From Bacteroidota bacterium (GTDB taxonomy: Bacteria; Bacteroidota; Ignavibacteria; Ignavibacteriales; Ignavibacteriaceae), in the NCBI GenBank assembly GCA_021777835.1, contig JAJYDC010000006.1:90163-154162 (forward strand): a stretch of 64,000 bases of DNA. Direction: 5' to 3'. Of the stretch, positions 42,045-48,361 are shown one piece after another. Positions within the stretch are counted from its first letter, which is position 1. Every line of letters starts with the position of its first letter. The notes beneath the pieces are model-generated. The model saw only the letters and a program-made list of their open reading frames with translations. It searched no databases and was not told the origin of the DNA. The position numbers were made by a program, and so were the translations under genes.

Positions 42045-43208
42045 TTAGTTCTCAACTTCTTCTAAAACAGGAAGCTCAATTTTTGAAATCTTTAATTCTT
42101 TGGGTTTGGACTTGCCGTTTTTGCCATTACTTCCATTCTTGCCGTTTGTTTTTACCGGATTATGATGATCATGATAATTTTTATAAGAATAAATCTTCTT
42201 CTGATAGTTACGCAAAATTATTTTTTCTTCGTCAAAATGGACGACATAATTAGGAAGTAACGGGATTTTCCCGCCTCCACCAGGAGCGTCAATTACGAAA
42301 TGAGGAATTGCAAGTCCGCTAGTATGACCTCGCAGATTCTCAATTATGTTCAATCCGGTTTCAATAGAAGTTCTAAAATGATTGGCACCCTTTGTTTCGT
42401 CAGCCATATACATATAATATGGTCGAACGCGGATTCTAAGGAGTTTTTGCATTAATTCTTTGACTACTTCTGGAGAATCGTTGACGCCTTTCATAAGGAC
42501 CATCTGATTCCCTACGGGAATTCCGGCGTCTGCGAGCATATTACATGCCTTAGAGCTTTCAGGAGTAATTTCCCATGGATGATTAAAATGAGTATTAAGG
42601 TAAATTGGATGATATTTTTTCAGCATATTACAAAGCTGCGGAGTAATCCTGTGCGGAAGGACGCAAGGCATTTTAGAACCAAGTCTAATAATTTCAATAT
42701 GAGGAATTGCTCTCAAGCGCTGAATAATTTTTTCTAACATAGCATCAGTCAGCATAAGCGGGTCACCACCAGACATAATAACATCTCTAATTTCAGTGTG
42801 CTTTTCAAGATATTGGAATGCACTTTCTAATCCTTTCATTGAAATTTTTTCATAATCTCCAACTTTTCGTTTACGTGTGCAGAAGCGGCAATACAGTCCA
42901 CATTGACTAGTCACAAGGAAGAGTGCTCTATCAGGATACCTATGGGTAATATTAGGAACCGGGCTCATCGCATCCTCCATTAAGGGGTCTTCATCGCTAT
43001 CAATATCATCAAGCTCAATTTTATCCGGGACACACTGTCGCCAAATAGGGTCGCCCGGATAACGAATTAAACTAAGATAATAGGGATTTATTCGAGCTTG
43101 GAAAAATTCATCTAGATCTTCCGCAACTTTTCTTTCGATATTAAATTTTTCCACAATCTGATCAACAGTGTGAACGCTGTCTCTGATCATTTGCTGCCAC
43201 AGTTCCAT
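42045..43208 (-). CDS. kamA: Lysine 2,3-aminomutase (KamA family)
   Basis: Radical-SAM, PLP-dependent enzyme converting L-lysine to L-beta-lysine. The 387-residue protein has the cluster motif CGLYCRFCTRKRK, SGGDPLML, and the PLP lysine in DAPGGGGKIP. The two aspartates that bind the substrate amine in the clostridial enzyme appear conserved (ADETKGANHFRT and VIDAPGGGG), favouring lysine over glutamate. The zinc-binding cysteines of the clostridial enzyme are not visible (GVNDS where it has GINDC, and no C-terminal cysteine cluster). A G/N/K-rich tail (NGKNGSNGKNGK) is added. It is the last gene of a four-gene operon with ATP-grasp ligases and a GNAT. Confidence 0.85.
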   Translation of the reverse strand: MELWQQMIRDSVHTVDQIVEKFNIERKVAEDLDEFFQARINPYYLSLIRYPGDPIWRQCVPDKIELDDIDSDEDPLMEDAMSPVPNITHRYPDRALFLVTSQCGLYCRFCTRKRKVGDYEKISMKGLESAFQYLEKHTEIRDVIMSGGDPLMLTDAMLEKIIQRLRAIPHIEIIRLGSKMPCVLPHRITPQLCNMLKKYHPIYLNTHFNHPWEITPESSKACNMLADAGIPVGNQMVLMKGVNDSPEVVKELMQKLLRIRVRPYYMYMADETKGANHFRTSIETGLNIIENLRGHTSGLAIPHFVIDAPGGGGKIPLLPNYVVHFDEEKIILRNYQKKIYSYKNYHDHHNPVKTNGKNGSNGKNGKSKPKELKISKIELPVLEEVEN

Positions 43209-43228
43209 GACTAAGCCTCAGTTTGTTT

Positions 43229-43699
43229 TTAATAAAAATATTTTCCGAAAATAATTAAATGGTCGCCTATAGAATAAAAATCATTTATCTCCGCGACTAT
43301 TGTAAACTTGTTTCGCAAGTAAAAACTTCTTGTTTTTGAATAATTTTCTTTGGACGACGTCTCAGCCAAAAACCATCTTCCTTTACTTTCTTTAACAAAA
43401 CCTTCCGCATGATCAAGAAGACTCTTACCAATGCCTTTTATTTTGGAATCAGGATCAGCAACGATCCAGTATAAATCAAAAACTCCGTCGGTCAGCGGTC
43501 TCTTACCCGTGCAATGATAGCCTAATATTTTTTTTTCGTGTTCATAAACAAAAAGATAATATTCCTTTTGCATCGGATTATTTGCCGCAATATTTACTAA
43601 TTCCATGGCTACTTCAACTTCACTACTAGTAAAGTTGGAAATTTTATTAAGCAACTTTTCAATTTTAGAAGCATCAGCTTGCTCTATTTTGCGAATCAT
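43229..43699 (-). CDS. GNAT-family N-acetyltransferase (kamA operon)
   Basis: A 156-residue acetyltransferase. Motif A is IVADPDSKIKGIGKSLLDHAE, with the acetyl-CoA pyrophosphate loop KIKGIGKS. A tyrosine-rich start (YYLFVYEHEKKILGYHC) and a C-terminal HLIIFGKYF complete the fold. The gene overlaps the ATP-grasp gene upstream by 26 bp and is 20 bp before kamA. In archaea and some bacteria a GNAT (AblB) acetylates beta-lysine to N-epsilon-acetyl-beta-lysine; this one is shorter than AblB and could act on the ligated product instead. Substrate is inference from context. Confidence 0.85.
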   Translation of the reverse strand: MIRKIEQADASKIEKLLNKISNFTSSEVEVAMELVNIAANNPMQKEYYLFVYEHEKKILGYHCTGKRPLTDGVFDLYWIVADPDSKIKGIGKSLLDHAEGFVKESKGRWFLAETSSKENYSKTRSFYLRNKFTIVAEINDFYSIGDHLIIFGKYFY

Positions 43700-44735
43700 T
43701 ATTTTCTCTTGTTAAAGCAAAATCTGCAATACGTTTCAATAATTCGGGATAAGGAATACCAGCGGATGCTGAAGCCCTTGCAAAACCCGAGTCGGTAGAA
43801 ATATCCGGGTTTGGATTAACCTCAATTACAAATGGGTTTCCATTTTTATCGATGCGAAAATCTATTCTAGCATAGTCTCTACATCCCATTGCCTCAAATG
43901 CAAGCAAAGCCGTTTTCTCAATCTTATGCTTAAGATCTTTGTTAAGCTTAGCGGGACATACCGGTTTCGTATGCTGATAATAAACACTTTTCTCAATCCA
44001 CTTTCCTTCATAAGTAACAATTTTTGGTAAATTATCCGGAAGACCATCAAAATTAATTTCGGATATTGGCAGTACATTATCTCCAAGAACCGCAGCATTA
44101 AGTTCGCGACCGCTAATATATTCTTCCACAATCACTTCCTGATTGTATGTGTCCCATAAAAAATTAAGGTGCTTTTCCAAAGAGTTAATGTCTTCTACAA
44201 CTGAGAGTTCGGAAATGCCTATGCTTGCGTCCTCTTTAAGTAATTTCAGGATTACTGGAAAATTTAGAGAAAAATTATTTTTCGATAACTGTTGGAAAGG
44301 TTTTAATGTTGTGGATTTTGGTGTACTAATTCCAAAAGAAGCTAAAATATATTTTGTTCTACTTTTATTTAGACAATTGCCAAGTGTAGCTGGAAGATTG
44401 CCAGTAAAATTATACCCTAATAGTTGATACAAGCCAGCCATACAGAATTCATAGGAAGCTATTCCCTCTACAGACTCTACAAAATTAAAAATTATATCAG
44501 GATTATATTCATTAATAGAATCAATAGTATGCTCAACATTTCGATCAATTGGGATAGCCTTAACCTCTGTGAAAAACCCCGAAAGATTATTTTTAATTTG
44601 AGAAATTTCATTAATAAATCCATTTTCAGATAGATCATTATTCGTAAACTCATCAATATTTGGTTTCCCGTTATAAATAGAAAATACAGAAACAGGAGCA
44701 TTATAACAAACTAATATTTTACTATTAACTTTCAT
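43674..44735 (-). CDS. ATP-grasp ligase, D-Ala-D-Ala-ligase-like (second copy)
   Basis: A 353-residue ATP-grasp amide ligase. It has IIFNFVESVEGIASYEF where D-Ala-D-Ala ligases have the HG-GEDG loop, the ATP-binding FPVILKLLKEDAS, VIVEEYISGREL, and the magnesium-site DYARIDFRID with FVIEVNPNPDIS. It is about 30 percent similar by eye to the neighbouring ligase and overlaps it by 4 bp, so they probably arose by duplication or act in succession. The amino-acid substrates are not those of cell-wall Ddl by context; beta-lysine is the obvious candidate. Its 3' end overlaps the GNAT gene by 26 bp. Confidence 0.82.
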   Translation of the reverse strand: MKVNSKILVCYNAPVSVFSIYNGKPNIDEFTNNDLSENGFINEISQIKNNLSGFFTEVKAIPIDRNVEHTIDSINEYNPDIIFNFVESVEGIASYEFCMAGLYQLLGYNFTGNLPATLGNCLNKSRTKYILASFGISTPKSTTLKPFQQLSKNNFSLNFPVILKLLKEDASIGISELSVVEDINSLEKHLNFLWDTYNQEVIVEEYISGRELNAAVLGDNVLPISEINFDGLPDNLPKIVTYEGKWIEKSVYYQHTKPVCPAKLNKDLKHKIEKTALLAFEAMGCRDYARIDFRIDKNGNPFVIEVNPNPDISTDSGFARASASAGIPYPELLKRIADFALTRENNDSQNRAS

Positions 44736-45787
44736 ATTAGTTTGTATCTTTTTGCCGCAGCAAATAAAACTTTATTAATCATATCGTTATAACTTAATCC
44801 GCTTGAGCGAGCCGCTTTGGGAAAACACGAATTATCATTTGGATCAGGAAGTATTCCCGGGAGAGGATTTACTTCGATTATGTTAGGTTCACCATTTTCA
44901 TCCAGCCTAATATCTATCCGACTCCAATCTTTACAACGTAATACGTTATAGGTTTTAAGGGCTGTCTTTTTAATCTTTGATTCAAGAGTTGAATTTATAT
45001 TTGCTGGACAAGAGAAAACGTTAAGGGGGCTTTCTTTAGTATCTAAAATCCATTTTGCTTCATATGAATAAATAGGAATAAAGTCCTTAGGAAAATCAGC
45101 GAAATTAATTTCTACAACCGGGAGAACCTCAGCTTCCTCACCGTTTCCAATTATTGCAACAGTAAATTCTCTTCCAGGTAAAAATTCTTCTATTAGCGCA
45201 GGCTGATTATATTCGGAAATTATTCTTTCTACTTCATTGTTAAGATCCTTTTGACTTTTCACAAATGAGGAAGAAAAAATTCCCTTGCTTGATCCTTCAA
45301 AAACCGGTTTAACAATAAGAGGGAATTTAATATTAATATTTTTTATTTCATTTAATCCAAAGGCAATCAAGAATTTAGCGTTTGGTATTCTATAGTACGA
45401 TAAAACTTCTTTTGTTCGAGCCTTATCTAAACAAGTAGTAAGAGTAAGGGGATCTGATCCAGTATATGGAATTTGAAGCATATCAAGCATAGATGGAATT
45501 TGAGCCTCACGGCTGCCTCCGCTAAAGCCTTCTGCAACATTAAATACAATGTCCGGCTTAGTTTCCCGAAATTTATTGAAGGCTGAATCGTCAGCTTCAA
45601 TCAGAATCACATTATTTAAACTCTCTAATGCATCTTTAAGGGCATTAACGGTATCCCATGTATCCCATTCTGCATAAGTATCTATAGATTTTTGTGGCTG
45701 AGTAATGCGATCATTTAAAATTGGGGGTACGATTTCGTGGAAAGTTTGACTTTCAGGCTTTACATTATAAGTTAATGCAACGTTCAA
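44732..45787 (-). CDS. ATP-grasp ligase, D-Ala-D-Ala-ligase-like (first copy)
   Basis: A 351-residue ATP-grasp ligase, first gene of the operon. Motifs: VFNVAEGFSGGSREAQIPS, YTGSDPLTLTTCLDK, FPLIVKPVFEGSSKGI, LIEEFLPGREFTVAII and the metal-site SRIDIRLDENGEPNIIEVNPLPG. Start is uncertain: the TTG at 45787 has no nearby ribosome-binding site, while AAGGAG at 45826-45821 sits 6 bp before an in-frame ATT at 45814 that would add nine residues. A promoter-like element is 60-85 bp upstream. It overlaps the second ligase by 4 bp. Confidence 0.82.
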   Translation of the reverse strand: MNVALTYNVKPESQTFHEIVPPILNDRITQPQKSIDTYAEWDTWDTVNALKDALESLNNVILIEADDSAFNKFRETKPDIVFNVAEGFSGGSREAQIPSMLDMLQIPYTGSDPLTLTTCLDKARTKEVLSYYRIPNAKFLIAFGLNEIKNINIKFPLIVKPVFEGSSKGIFSSSFVKSQKDLNNEVERIISEYNQPALIEEFLPGREFTVAIIGNGEEAEVLPVVEINFADFPKDFIPIYSYEAKWILDTKESPLNVFSCPANINSTLESKIKKTALKTYNVLRCKDWSRIDIRLDENGEPNIIEVNPLPGILPDPNDNSCFPKAARSSGLSYNDMINKVLFAAAKRYKLI

Positions 45788-45845
45788 TCTATCATTGAAC
45801 TCGGGGGATAAAATATTTTTCTCCTTCTGTAAATTATTTTTAACA

Positions 45846-45873
45846 AATATAACTAATAAATATTCTAAGTCAA
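45846..45873 (-). promoter_or_regulatory. Candidate promoter of the ATP-grasp/kamA operon
   Basis: On the minus strand TTGACT and TATATT are separated by 16 bp, with the ribosome-binding AAGGAG about 20 bp further on. This would give a short leader. The surrounding 250 bp are AT-rich with no other clear feature. Confidence 0.45.
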
Positions 45874-46043: not shown

Positions 46044-48254
46044 CTATGCGATCTTAGAATAATTTAGACTATGAGCGTAATGCTCAAACAAATTCTTCTT
46101 AATAATAAGATTATTTTCTTTTTGAAAATAAGGATCACTTTCAACTATAGCGAATGCTACCGCTTTTGCCATGACAATTAATTCCGAATCTTGCGTAAGA
46201 GTAGCATGCTTTAACTCAGGAAATCCGCTTTGTTCCGTACCAAAGATATTCCCGGGGCCGCGCAATTTTAGATCAACTTCTGCAATTTTGAAACCATCCA
46301 AATAGTTCACCATTGCTTGAAGCCTGACTGAAGATCGATACTTTTCAAGCTGAATTGGAGAAAGATAATCAAGGTTTAGTTTATACTTGCTGTTTGATGC
46401 TGCCAATTCTTCTTTAGTTACAAGGATACAATAGCCTTGTTCTGCGCTCCTTCCAATTCGTCCACGGAGTTGATGAAGCTGAGAAAGTCCAAAGCGCTGC
46501 GCATCATTTATTACCATTATATTGGCATTCGGGATGTCAATGCCAACTTCAATAACTGTTGTTGCTATAAGGACATTATATTCTTTCGCAAGAAACATTA
46601 GCATAATTTCTTCTTTTTCTTGCCATGACATTCTTCCGTGGAGTAAACCTACTTTTATATCTTTCAAATAGGTTTCTGATAATTCTCGAAAATATGTTTC
46701 CGCTGCTTTTAATTCTAGCTTTTCAGATTCTTCAACCAGTGGATAAACTATAAATGATTGGTAACCATCCTTAACTTTATTAATAATAAACTTATAAATA
46801 TCGGGTAATGAGCCCTCTCCCCTTAAGATTGTTTTTATTGGTTTTCTTTCCTTCGGCATCTCGTTAATTATTGAAGCATCAAGATCACCATAAACAGTCA
46901 TCGTTAGTGTTCTAGGAATCGGAGTTGCACTCATAACTAAAACATCTGGAACAACACCTTTATTCTGAAGTTTTGCTCTTTGCTCGACTCCAAAGCGATG
47001 CTGTTCATCAACAATGACAAGTCCAAGTTTTTTAAATTTCACTCGTTCTTCAAATAGCGCATGGGTGCCCACAACAATATCAGCATCCATAAGTCCAATT
47101 CCATCCAATGCTTTGTTTTTGACAGACTTTTTTTGTCCACCAATAAGCAAACTTATATTTATATCTTTGTCTTTATAAATTTCGGAGAGATTCTTTAATA
47201 ACTTTGAAATATTTTTTGAGTGTTGATCGGCTAGAATTTCTGTAGGTACCATTAGCACTGCTTGATATCCGTTATCAACAGCAATTAGCATAGCAATTAA
47301 AGCAACGATAGTTTTACCACTGCCAACATCACCCTGTAAAAGCCTATTCATTGGAGTAGGTGACTCCATGTCCCTTCTTATTTCGCCTAAAACTCGAAGT
47401 TGTGCTTCAGTTAATTTAAAAGGAAGAATTTTTAAAAAGCTCGAGATTAGACTCGTCCTTACCTTCATTGAATTACCGGTGAGTTTTGTTTTATAATTAA
47501 ATTTCCGAAGAGCAACCAGAAGTTCAAGATAAAAGAGTTCTTCGAACTTAAACCTTTGAATTGCTTTGTTAAGCCCTTCTCTATTTTCGGGAAAATGAAA
47601 ATTTTTTATTGATTCAATTAGTCCAGTTATATTATTTTCTTTCAACAATTCTTCCGGCAAAGTCTCATCGAGATAGTCGGCATAATTTTCAACTGCCGTG
47701 TTTATAATTTTTCTTAGGCTAAAGTCGCCTATACTCCCCATACGTAATTCTTTGGGAATCCTGTAAAATGGGATTATCTTTCCGGTGTTTAATATATTGT
47801 TTGATTCGTCCTCACTTATCCGATCAAAATCAGGATGTGTAAATTGAAGTGCGTTATATTTTGAAATAACTGGCTTGCCCGATATGGCAAATATTTCTCC
47901 AGCGTTAAAAACATTTGAAAAATATTTTATTCCTTGAAACCAAACACATTCAAAGAAACCCGTAGAGTCTCGCATTTGCACTTTCAGCAATTCTTTTTTG
48001 CCAAACATTAACTTTTCGGCATTTACTACCTTTCCAACTATCGTGATTTCGCCGTTGAATCCATTAAGTAAATAGCCATAAGCTTTAGAGATTGTTAATG
48101 TAGTAGTTCGATCAAGATGACGTGAAGGGAAATAGAATAACAAGTCACGAATCGTATTGATTCCAATTTTTCTAAACGAAGCTGCTCGTTTAGGTCCAAC
48201 GGATTTTATAAATTGAACGGATTGATTTAGTATATTTTCTTTTTCAGAATTCAT
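46044..48254 (-). CDS. recG: ATP-dependent DNA helicase RecG
   Basis: Branch-migration helicase acting on replication forks and recombination intermediates. About 736 residues from the ATG at 48254; the track's GTG adds eight. An N-terminal wedge/OB region (VGPKRAASFRKIGI, DLLFYFPSRHLD) is followed by the helicase motifs: Walker A LLQGDVGSGKTIVAL, VDEQHRFGVEQR, SATPIPRTL, LHGRMSWQEKE, TTVIEVGIDIPNA and QLRGRIGRS. It is divergent from dgt, with a 107-bp gap. Confidence 0.96.
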   Translation of the reverse strand: MNSEKENILNQSVQFIKSVGPKRAASFRKIGINTIRDLLFYFPSRHLDRTTTLTISKAYGYLLNGFNGEITIVGKVVNAEKLMFGKKELLKVQMRDSTGFFECVWFQGIKYFSNVFNAGEIFAISGKPVISKYNALQFTHPDFDRISEDESNNILNTGKIIPFYRIPKELRMGSIGDFSLRKIINTAVENYADYLDETLPEELLKENNITGLIESIKNFHFPENREGLNKAIQRFKFEELFYLELLVALRKFNYKTKLTGNSMKVRTSLISSFLKILPFKLTEAQLRVLGEIRRDMESPTPMNRLLQGDVGSGKTIVALIAMLIAVDNGYQAVLMVPTEILADQHSKNISKLLKNLSEIYKDKDINISLLIGGQKKSVKNKALDGIGLMDADIVVGTHALFEERVKFKKLGLVIVDEQHRFGVEQRAKLQNKGVVPDVLVMSATPIPRTLTMTVYGDLDASIINEMPKERKPIKTILRGEGSLPDIYKFIINKVKDGYQSFIVYPLVEESEKLELKAAETYFRELSETYLKDIKVGLLHGRMSWQEKEEIMLMFLAKEYNVLIATTVIEVGIDIPNANIMVINDAQRFGLSQLHQLRGRIGRSAEQGYCILVTKEELAASNSKYKLNLDYLSPIQLEKYRSSVRLQAMVNYLDGFKIAEVDLKLRGPGNIFGTEQSGFPELKHATLTQDSELIVMAKAVAFAIVESDPYFQKENNLIIKKNLFEHYAHSLNYSKIA

Positions 48255-48361
48255 TGTACTAAAAATAATTCTTGTCACAAGTAATTACAACTTAATCAAA
48301 ATTTCAAATTTAATTTAGTATTTTAAAAGTTATTATTTATAAAATAAAATTTGAGTCGACG

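Follow-up and report, generated by a model that had tools for sequence, protein, structure and literature searches.

A conserved four-gene operon of Ignavibacteria with two ATP-grasp ligases, an acetyltransferase and a lysine 2,3-aminomutase homologue: a predicted pathway for an acetylated amide or short peptide of beta-lysine

A lysine 2,3-aminomutase homologue and a GNAT acetyltransferase make up the AblA/AblB operon for Nepsilon-acetyl-beta-lysine of methanogens and some bacteria, whereas KamA stands beside an ATP-grasp ligase in a plasmid cluster of Thioflavicoccus mobilis and in rhizobial pairs of KamA and L-amino-acid ligase. Operons in which carrier-free ATP-grasp amidoligases make peptides were reportedly described by Iyer et al. 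in 2009. PMC4431377, which cites that work, proposes that adjacent ATP-grasp ligases form amide bonds one after another and that a GNAT enzyme adds a cap, and there is a precedent for the acetyl blocking of lysine N6 ahead of ligation (PMC2922099). At the level of translation, conserved AUU or AUA start codons have been described in bacteria for infC, pcnB, cvfC1 and ccpN (PMC9410913, PMC13009471).

The operon analysed here lies in a window of 64,000 nucleotides from a Bacteroidota bacterium (contig JAJYDC010000006.1). The genes follow one another on the minus strand at 42045–45814 in the order ligA-ligB-GNAT-kamA (Table 1), with overlaps of 4 bp (ligA/ligB) and 26 bp (ligB/GNAT) and a gap of 20 bp (GNAT/kamA). 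All four ORFs were located where the initial annotation had placed them, and its reading of a minus-strand operon agrees with the ORF check in positions, strand, overlaps and gap. The end which it gave, 45826, is where the Shine-Dalgarno sequence begins, and the likely start of ligA is the ATT at 45814–45812. The single candidate promoter that it proposed does correspond to a consensus match at 45873–45846, but such sigma-70-like matches are no commoner than in shuffled sequence (15 found, 18.3 expected). Neither the promoter nor the terminator scans rose above what shuffling yields, and an Rfam search returned no leader RNA.

Table 1. Features of the operon and its upstream region (window coordinates)
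Feature	Position	Strand	Description
kamA	42045..43208	-	387 aa, radical-SAM, PLP-dependent lysine 2,3-aminomutase homologue
GNAT N-acetyltransferase	43229..43699	-	156 aa, with 2R7H as nearest solved relative; not of the AblB type
ligB	43674..44735	-	353 aa ATP-grasp, D-Ala-D-Ala-ligase superfamily, FNFVES loop; DdlB positions Y216 and G276 occupied by W and D, respectively
ligA	44732..45814	-	ATP-grasp ligase, FNVAEG loop, proposed ATT start at 45814
ligA, mechanical ORF call	44732-45787	-	TTG start, 351 aa
Proposed AUU start codon of ligA	45812..45814	-	ATT/ATC/ATA conserved in the order
Shine-Dalgarno AAGGAG of ligA	45821..45826	-	
ATGA stop/start overlap ligA/ligB	44732..44735	-	probable translational coupling
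Sigma-70-like match TTGACT-16-TATATT	45846..45873	-	consensus match, weak evidence
recG	46044..48278	-	upstream neighbour, likewise on the operon's strand in the majority of the order's loci; outside the pathway

An identical gene order and strand was found in all 60 further loci examined, which belong to one order and its class; thus, the arrangement is not due to chance, and the neighbourhood is kept across a class rather than being unique to this genome. Most of the order's loci retain the 4-bp overlap of ligA and ligB, and both ligases are always present where a locus of the window type is complete. A matching KamA is present in 65 of the 68 genomes with a LigB-type match (counts that are phylogenetically dependent), and the genomes of the order that lack LigB also lack the GNAT relative and the operon-type KamA. 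The apparent absence of KamA from two loci of the class proved to be an artefact, as a longer antisense ORF had masked kamA. In another lineage of the phylum (families f39, f51 and f24), all four genes are present on different contigs or far apart, and in four genomes without the operon there is a divergent cassette, KamA-LigA'-LigB'-[GNAT-deacetylase]-GNAT', which includes an acetylpolyamine-amidohydrolase-like domain. In a sample of 396 genomes, the GNAT-deacetylase fusion was not found beyond a handful from the order. Consistent linkage to the operon loci was seen for no transporter, regulator or additional tailoring enzyme, and plasmid searches yielded KamA-ligase pairs, but not the four-gene unit.

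Adjacent ligases, modifying enzymes and conservation of the unit together mark it as a predicted carrier-free ATP-grasp peptide operon. It shares adjacent ATP-grasp ligases and a GNAT with such operons as PMC4431377 describes them, and adds to them a predicted dedicated supply of beta-lysine, a fixed four-gene order across a class, and a proposed near-cognate start. The Thioflavicoccus and rhizobial clusters, in contrast, have a single ligase each. The rhizobial ligase is of another subfamily, and the rhizobial KamA has C at the D330 position, while the Thioflavicoccus cluster additionally contains SbnA/SbnB-like 2,3-diaminopropionate genes. Of the marks of N-acetylglutaminylglutamine amide (NAGGN) synthesis, neither a GNAT/ATP-grasp fusion nor a gene for the asparagine-synthetase-like AsnO was found inside the four-gene unit.

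Both ligases contain the Dala_Dala_lig_C domain (E-values 2e-31 and 5e-38; Pfam/NCBIfam). The predicted structure of LigB (pLDDT 76.6) is nearest to Ddl structures; the LigA model (pLDDT 54.4) was too poor to use. The likeness to D-Ala-D-Ala ligases (Ddl/Van) lies in the fold and in the ATP-grasp catalytic residues, with K97, K144, E180, E187, K215, R255, D257, E270 and N272 invariant in 60/60 LigA and 60/60 LigB sequences. The residues that bind D-Ala, on the other hand, are replaced: E15 and H63 of the D-Ala1 site are lost, and Y216 is changed to W, again in 60/60 sequences of each ligase. The loop motif is FNVAEG in LigA and FNFVES in LigB, compared with HGKWGEDG in the organism's own Ddl, which is encoded on another contig. 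In the ligase tree, Ddl forms a separate 100/100 clade, and LigA and LigB occupy their own clades outside it, neither of them clustering inside true Ddl clades. Loops, D-Ala determinants and tree thus bear out the initial annotation, according to which these are not cell-wall Ddl enzymes, and both proteins have the features of predicted ATP-grasp carboxylate-amine ligases. Membership of the Ddl superfamily and fold could still suggest that they form cell-wall or other D-amino-acid dipeptides in a Ddl- or Van-like manner, and that KamA provides the wall with an unusual amino acid. This is very unlikely, given the lost determinants, the separate clade, the separate housekeeping Ddl found in 25/26 genomes, and a cassette without any Mur, Van or transpeptidase gene.

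KamA, the sole copy in the genome, contains Radical_SAM and LAM_C domains (Pfam/NCBIfam), and its best equivalog-type profile is AblA. The AblA score (468.9 bits) is under the cut-off of 525.4, so the assignment of lysine as substrate rests on residues. C103, C107, C110, R112, D270, D307 and K314 of KamA correspond to C125, C129, C132, R134, D293, D330 and K337 of the solved enzyme 2A5H; the CxxxCxxC motif, the PLP lysine, the lysine-binding D293/D330 and R134 (2A5H numbering) are therefore retained, as they are in 60–61 of 61 operon KamA homologues, the single gap being due to a truncated sequence. Active-site residues and profiles support KamA as a predicted lysine 2,3-aminomutase and, with it, the beta-lysine supply proposed earlier.

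EpmB is a KamA homologue that supplies beta-lysine for EF-P, and KamA might likewise serve EF-P lysylation, with the ligases belonging to an unrelated pathway. However, KamA scores only 230.8 with the EpmB profile, far under the cut-off of 369.3, EpmA exceeds its profile cut-off in 0/39 genomes, and KamA is retained alongside the ligases even where they are unlinked, which makes this use extremely improbable. As to lysine fermentation (KamA-KamDE), the lysine 5,6-aminomutase alpha subunit (PF09043) is absent from the organism's own genome, and a distant PF09043 protein was found in 2/39 relatives. Gene content therefore supports neither of these uses.

The presence of KamA together with an acetyltransferase, and AblA as the top equivalog profile, would also fit a variant AblA/AblB osmolyte operon for Nepsilon-acetyl-beta-lysine, in which the ligases are accessory. 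Such a variant is improbable. A GNAT domain was confirmed in the 156-aa protein (Pfam/NCBIfam), but the AblB profile TIGR03827 gave no match to it at an E-value of 1e-3, and the two ATP-grasp ligases appear obligatory, being present in every complete locus of the window type. Moreover, true AblA-AblB pairs exist separately elsewhere in the phylum, without ligases at their loci; one of them is in the same order (G048; AblA 768.6 bits, AblB 338.3 bits), and true AblB was also found in G171 and G359. Nothing was found that supports the compatible-solute function under salt stress suggested by the initial annotation, and the literature on relatives gave no result on this role. Since a source of beta-lysine is supported, its use in EF-P modification and fermentation is not, and the GNAT is not AblB, an acetylated short beta-lysine amide or peptide is the best prediction, which preserves the beta-lysine-derived metabolite of the annotation without its role as a solute.

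Two ligases would allow any amine or acid partner, and beta-lysine may be just one part of a different intracellular metabolite, e.g., an acetylated low-molecular-weight thiol, a lipid or polyamine conjugate, or a signal. The acetylpolyamine-amidohydrolase-like domain of the divergent cassette and the 2,3-diaminopropionate genes adjoining ligase and KamA in Thioflavicoccus point in this direction, but thiol, lipid and polyamine genes are not consistently linked in the loci examined, and we regard this possibility as unlikely.

The strong Shine-Dalgarno sequence of ligA is followed by an in-frame ATT, ATC or ATA in 58 of 67 distinct leaders and by ATG, GTG or TTG in 0/67. Such a conserved codon, with no usable canonical start, has the character of an infC-like near-cognate start, and infC in the same genomes shows a matching layout of Shine-Dalgarno sequence and ATC/ATT. 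Hence, ligA appears to begin at a rare AUU, not AUG. It resembles infC, pcnB, cvfC1 and ccpN in the strong Shine-Dalgarno sequence followed by an IF3-sensitive near-cognate codon, and differs from them in that it heads a biosynthetic operon, with the codon kept across an order. AUU, AUC and AUA form the codon class against which IF3 discriminates; thus, output of the coupled operon is probably held down at translation. Rejection of the AUU by IF3 would keep expression of ligA low, and, as ligB and GNAT each overlap the preceding gene, initiation at ligA would limit these two as well through translational coupling.

Taken as a whole, the operon is rather likely to be a dedicated, carrier-free and AUU-throttled pathway whose product is an acetylated amide or short peptide of beta-lysine. 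In this pathway, KamA would convert L-lysine to L-beta-lysine, and the GNAT would place an acetyl group on an amine, most plausibly that in the epsilon position, to protect or cap it. With ATP, the two ligases would form acyl-phosphates and, from these, two amide bonds in succession, beta-lysine taking part in one of the two. How many amide bonds are made, in what order and with which partners is inferred.

A further possibility, put forward tentatively, is that the class keeps a novel acetylated di- or tripeptide of beta-lysine by vertical descent as a core metabolite, and that in one order the whole operon is gated by the conserved AUU, its synthesis being set by the level of IF3 and thereby by ribosome or growth state. 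If the predicted pathway is right, an undescribed small beta-amino-acid compound is produced throughout a class of environmental bacteria by a defined set of four enzymes, which could be reconstituted in vitro. With its conserved AUU, a biosynthetic operon would join the very few bacterial genes that retain IF3-sensitive starts, and ligA would offer a clean system for asking what purpose such codons serve.

Four overlapping or nearly touching genes on the minus strand had been described in the initial annotation, and the claimed 4-bp overlap (ATGA), 26-bp overlap and 20-bp gap were all found along the operon. Domain searches placed the D-Ala-D-Ala ligase C-terminal domain in both ATP-grasp ligases (LigA and LigB), GNAT N-acetyltransferase domains in the third gene product, and radical SAM and LAM_C in the fourth (KamA, a lysine 2,3-aminomutase homologue). 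The operon is flanked by recG upstream, on the same strand, and by a PdxB-like gene downstream. The LigB search returned strong relatives in most of the 146 genomes of the order. The arrangement recurs in other genomes: in neighbourhoods from the order and class, all four genes have identical order and strand at 60 loci, and the sole examined locus without LigA ends at a contig edge. Gene order stays constant though sequence diverges to about 40–55% (ligases) and 62–75% (KamA). The upstream neighbour is recG at most loci of the order and at many, not all, loci in the rest of the class.

Features of the four-gene operon and of the ligA leader
Feature	Position	Strand	Remark
Four-gene operon	42045-45814	minus	LigA, LigB, GNAT, KamA in transcription order
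ligA Shine-Dalgarno (SD) AAGGAG	45826-45821	minus	6 nt before in-frame ATT
Proposed ligA start ATT	45814-45812	minus	in frame after SD; no ATG, GTG or TTG near

Judged by its residues, KamA appears to be of the lysine 2,3-aminomutase type, as first proposed: the three cluster cysteines, R134, D293, D330 and K337 are retained (numbering of the solved enzyme 2A5H), and the best-scoring profile is AblA, yet below the equivalog cut-off. No second KamA was found in the window's genome. The GNAT, whose closest solved relative is 2R7H, is not AblB, which argues against an AblA/AblB operon for the osmolyte Nepsilon-acetyl-beta-lysine; the true AblA/AblB pairs of G048, G171 and G359 have no ligases at their loci. 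As for other uses of beta-lysine, EpmA of the EF-P route scored above the cut-off in none of 39 genomes, and the lysine 5,6-aminomutase alpha subunit of the fermentation route was not found in the window's genome. Two genomes of the order (G015, contig C33; G011, contig C157; loci L160/L161) encode PF09043 aminomutase-family proteins, possibly ornithine 4,5-aminomutase-like.

On rhizobial plasmids (L151, L153), an ATP-grasp ligase adjoins a KamA homologue; at L151 the C-terminal domain of the ligase is of the L-amino-acid-ligase type, and the KamA homologue there, with C for D330, perhaps has a different substrate. On Thioflavicoccus mobilis plasmid pTHIMO01 (L150), KamA convergently adjoins a row of diaminobutyrate aminotransferase, SbnA, ornithine-cyclodeaminase-like and Ddl-like ATP-grasp ligase genes, possibly for a 2,3-diaminopropionate/beta-lysine compound.

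The ligases had been held not to be cell-wall D-Ala-D-Ala ligases (Ddl), and this view was borne out by a tree in which Ddl forms its own clade, separate from LigA and LigB (support 100/100). All nine tested ATP-grasp catalytic/binding residues are kept in both, while Ddl residues E15 and H63 are lost and Y216 is replaced by W (60/60 LigA, 60/60 LigB). L282 is C or S in LigA and G in LigB, and G276 is D in 60/60 LigB. The LigB structure model (pLDDT 76.6) predicts a Ddl fold. A separate Ddl gene is present in 25 of 26 genomes.

A third ligase paralogue, LigC, occurs in the order and class independently of the four-gene operon; its divergently oriented neighbour encodes a conserved C39-peptidase-like protein (about 278 aa; L135–L145 and G000 contig C49, L140). 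A Collierbacteria contig (L007, 4095-6470) has two adjacent Ddl-like ATP-grasp ligases without KamA or GNAT. On Patescibacteria-type contigs (L008, L009, L010), the gene for a double ATP-grasp fusion is clustered with genes for another ATP-grasp-like protein and a protein resembling PLP decarboxylases, possibly another peptide or amine pathway.

Three families of the same phylum (f39, f51, f24) keep all four genes unlinked, on separate contigs or tens of kilobases apart, with KamA 52–57% identical. In a 396-genome sample, a LigB-type match (E 1e-60 or better) was found in 68 genomes, and 65 of these have a matching KamA. The other three are G015, which holds LigC only, G013, where the LigB match is truncated and the assembly is in 190 contigs, and G452, which is 81% complete. 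Neither a window-type KamA nor a GNAT relative was found in the LigB-less genomes tested from the order (G001, G015, G017, G020, G030, G050). None of these counts is phylogenetically independent, but the genes are retained when unlinked and lost jointly, and both patterns suggest a single pathway.

A second, five-gene cassette (KamA-LigA'-LigB'-[GNAT fused to an acetylpolyamine-amidohydrolase-like domain]-GNAT') was found in G054, G070, G099 and G083 (L201, L224, L225, L226), where searches did not find the window-type operon. On the short G083 contig, only the first three genes are visible before the contig ends (L225). The GNAT fusion partner is histone-deacetylase-like; acetyl groups may be both added and removed. 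LigA' groups with LigA (support 100/96) and LigB' with the LigB/LigC clade (100/95); therefore, the cassettes represent one enzyme kit in two divergent forms.

In the proposed pathway, KamA would convert lysine to beta-lysine, the GNAT would acetylate an amine, and LigA and LigB would form two amide bonds, ATP-dependently. For other systems, acetyl-blocking of the lysine side chain ahead of ligation and linked ligases acting in succession have both been argued (PMC2922099, PMC4431377).

An addition to the earlier claims concerns the start of ligA, which in its leaders appears to be a near-cognate codon (ATT, ATC or ATA), conserved and preceded by a strong SD (window 45812-45826; L013–L108). 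Of the 67 distinct leaders from the order, 51 have ATT after the best SD, five have ATC and two ATA, and none has a canonical start there; nine lack an SD. The spacing is 5–8 nt in 54 of the 58 leaders with an SD. No in-frame canonical start lies within 20 codons upstream in 46 leaders, in 19 the next 25 or more codons downstream contain none, and in no leader does the first canonical codon past the near-cognate one have an SD. The mechanically called TTG start at 45787 is TTA, CTG, TTT, CTT or CTA in many relatives. For comparison, kamA of the same operons has SD-ATG in 33 of the 34 cases having an SD, and infC of the same genomes has SD-ATC/ATT (about half of the loci readable). Conserved AUU/AUA starts with strong SDs are described for S. 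aureus cvfC1 and ccpN, with initiation down to ~10% (PMC13009471), and E. coli has two AUU-start genes, infC and pcnB (PMC9410913). We infer that the operon may be controlled by IF3.
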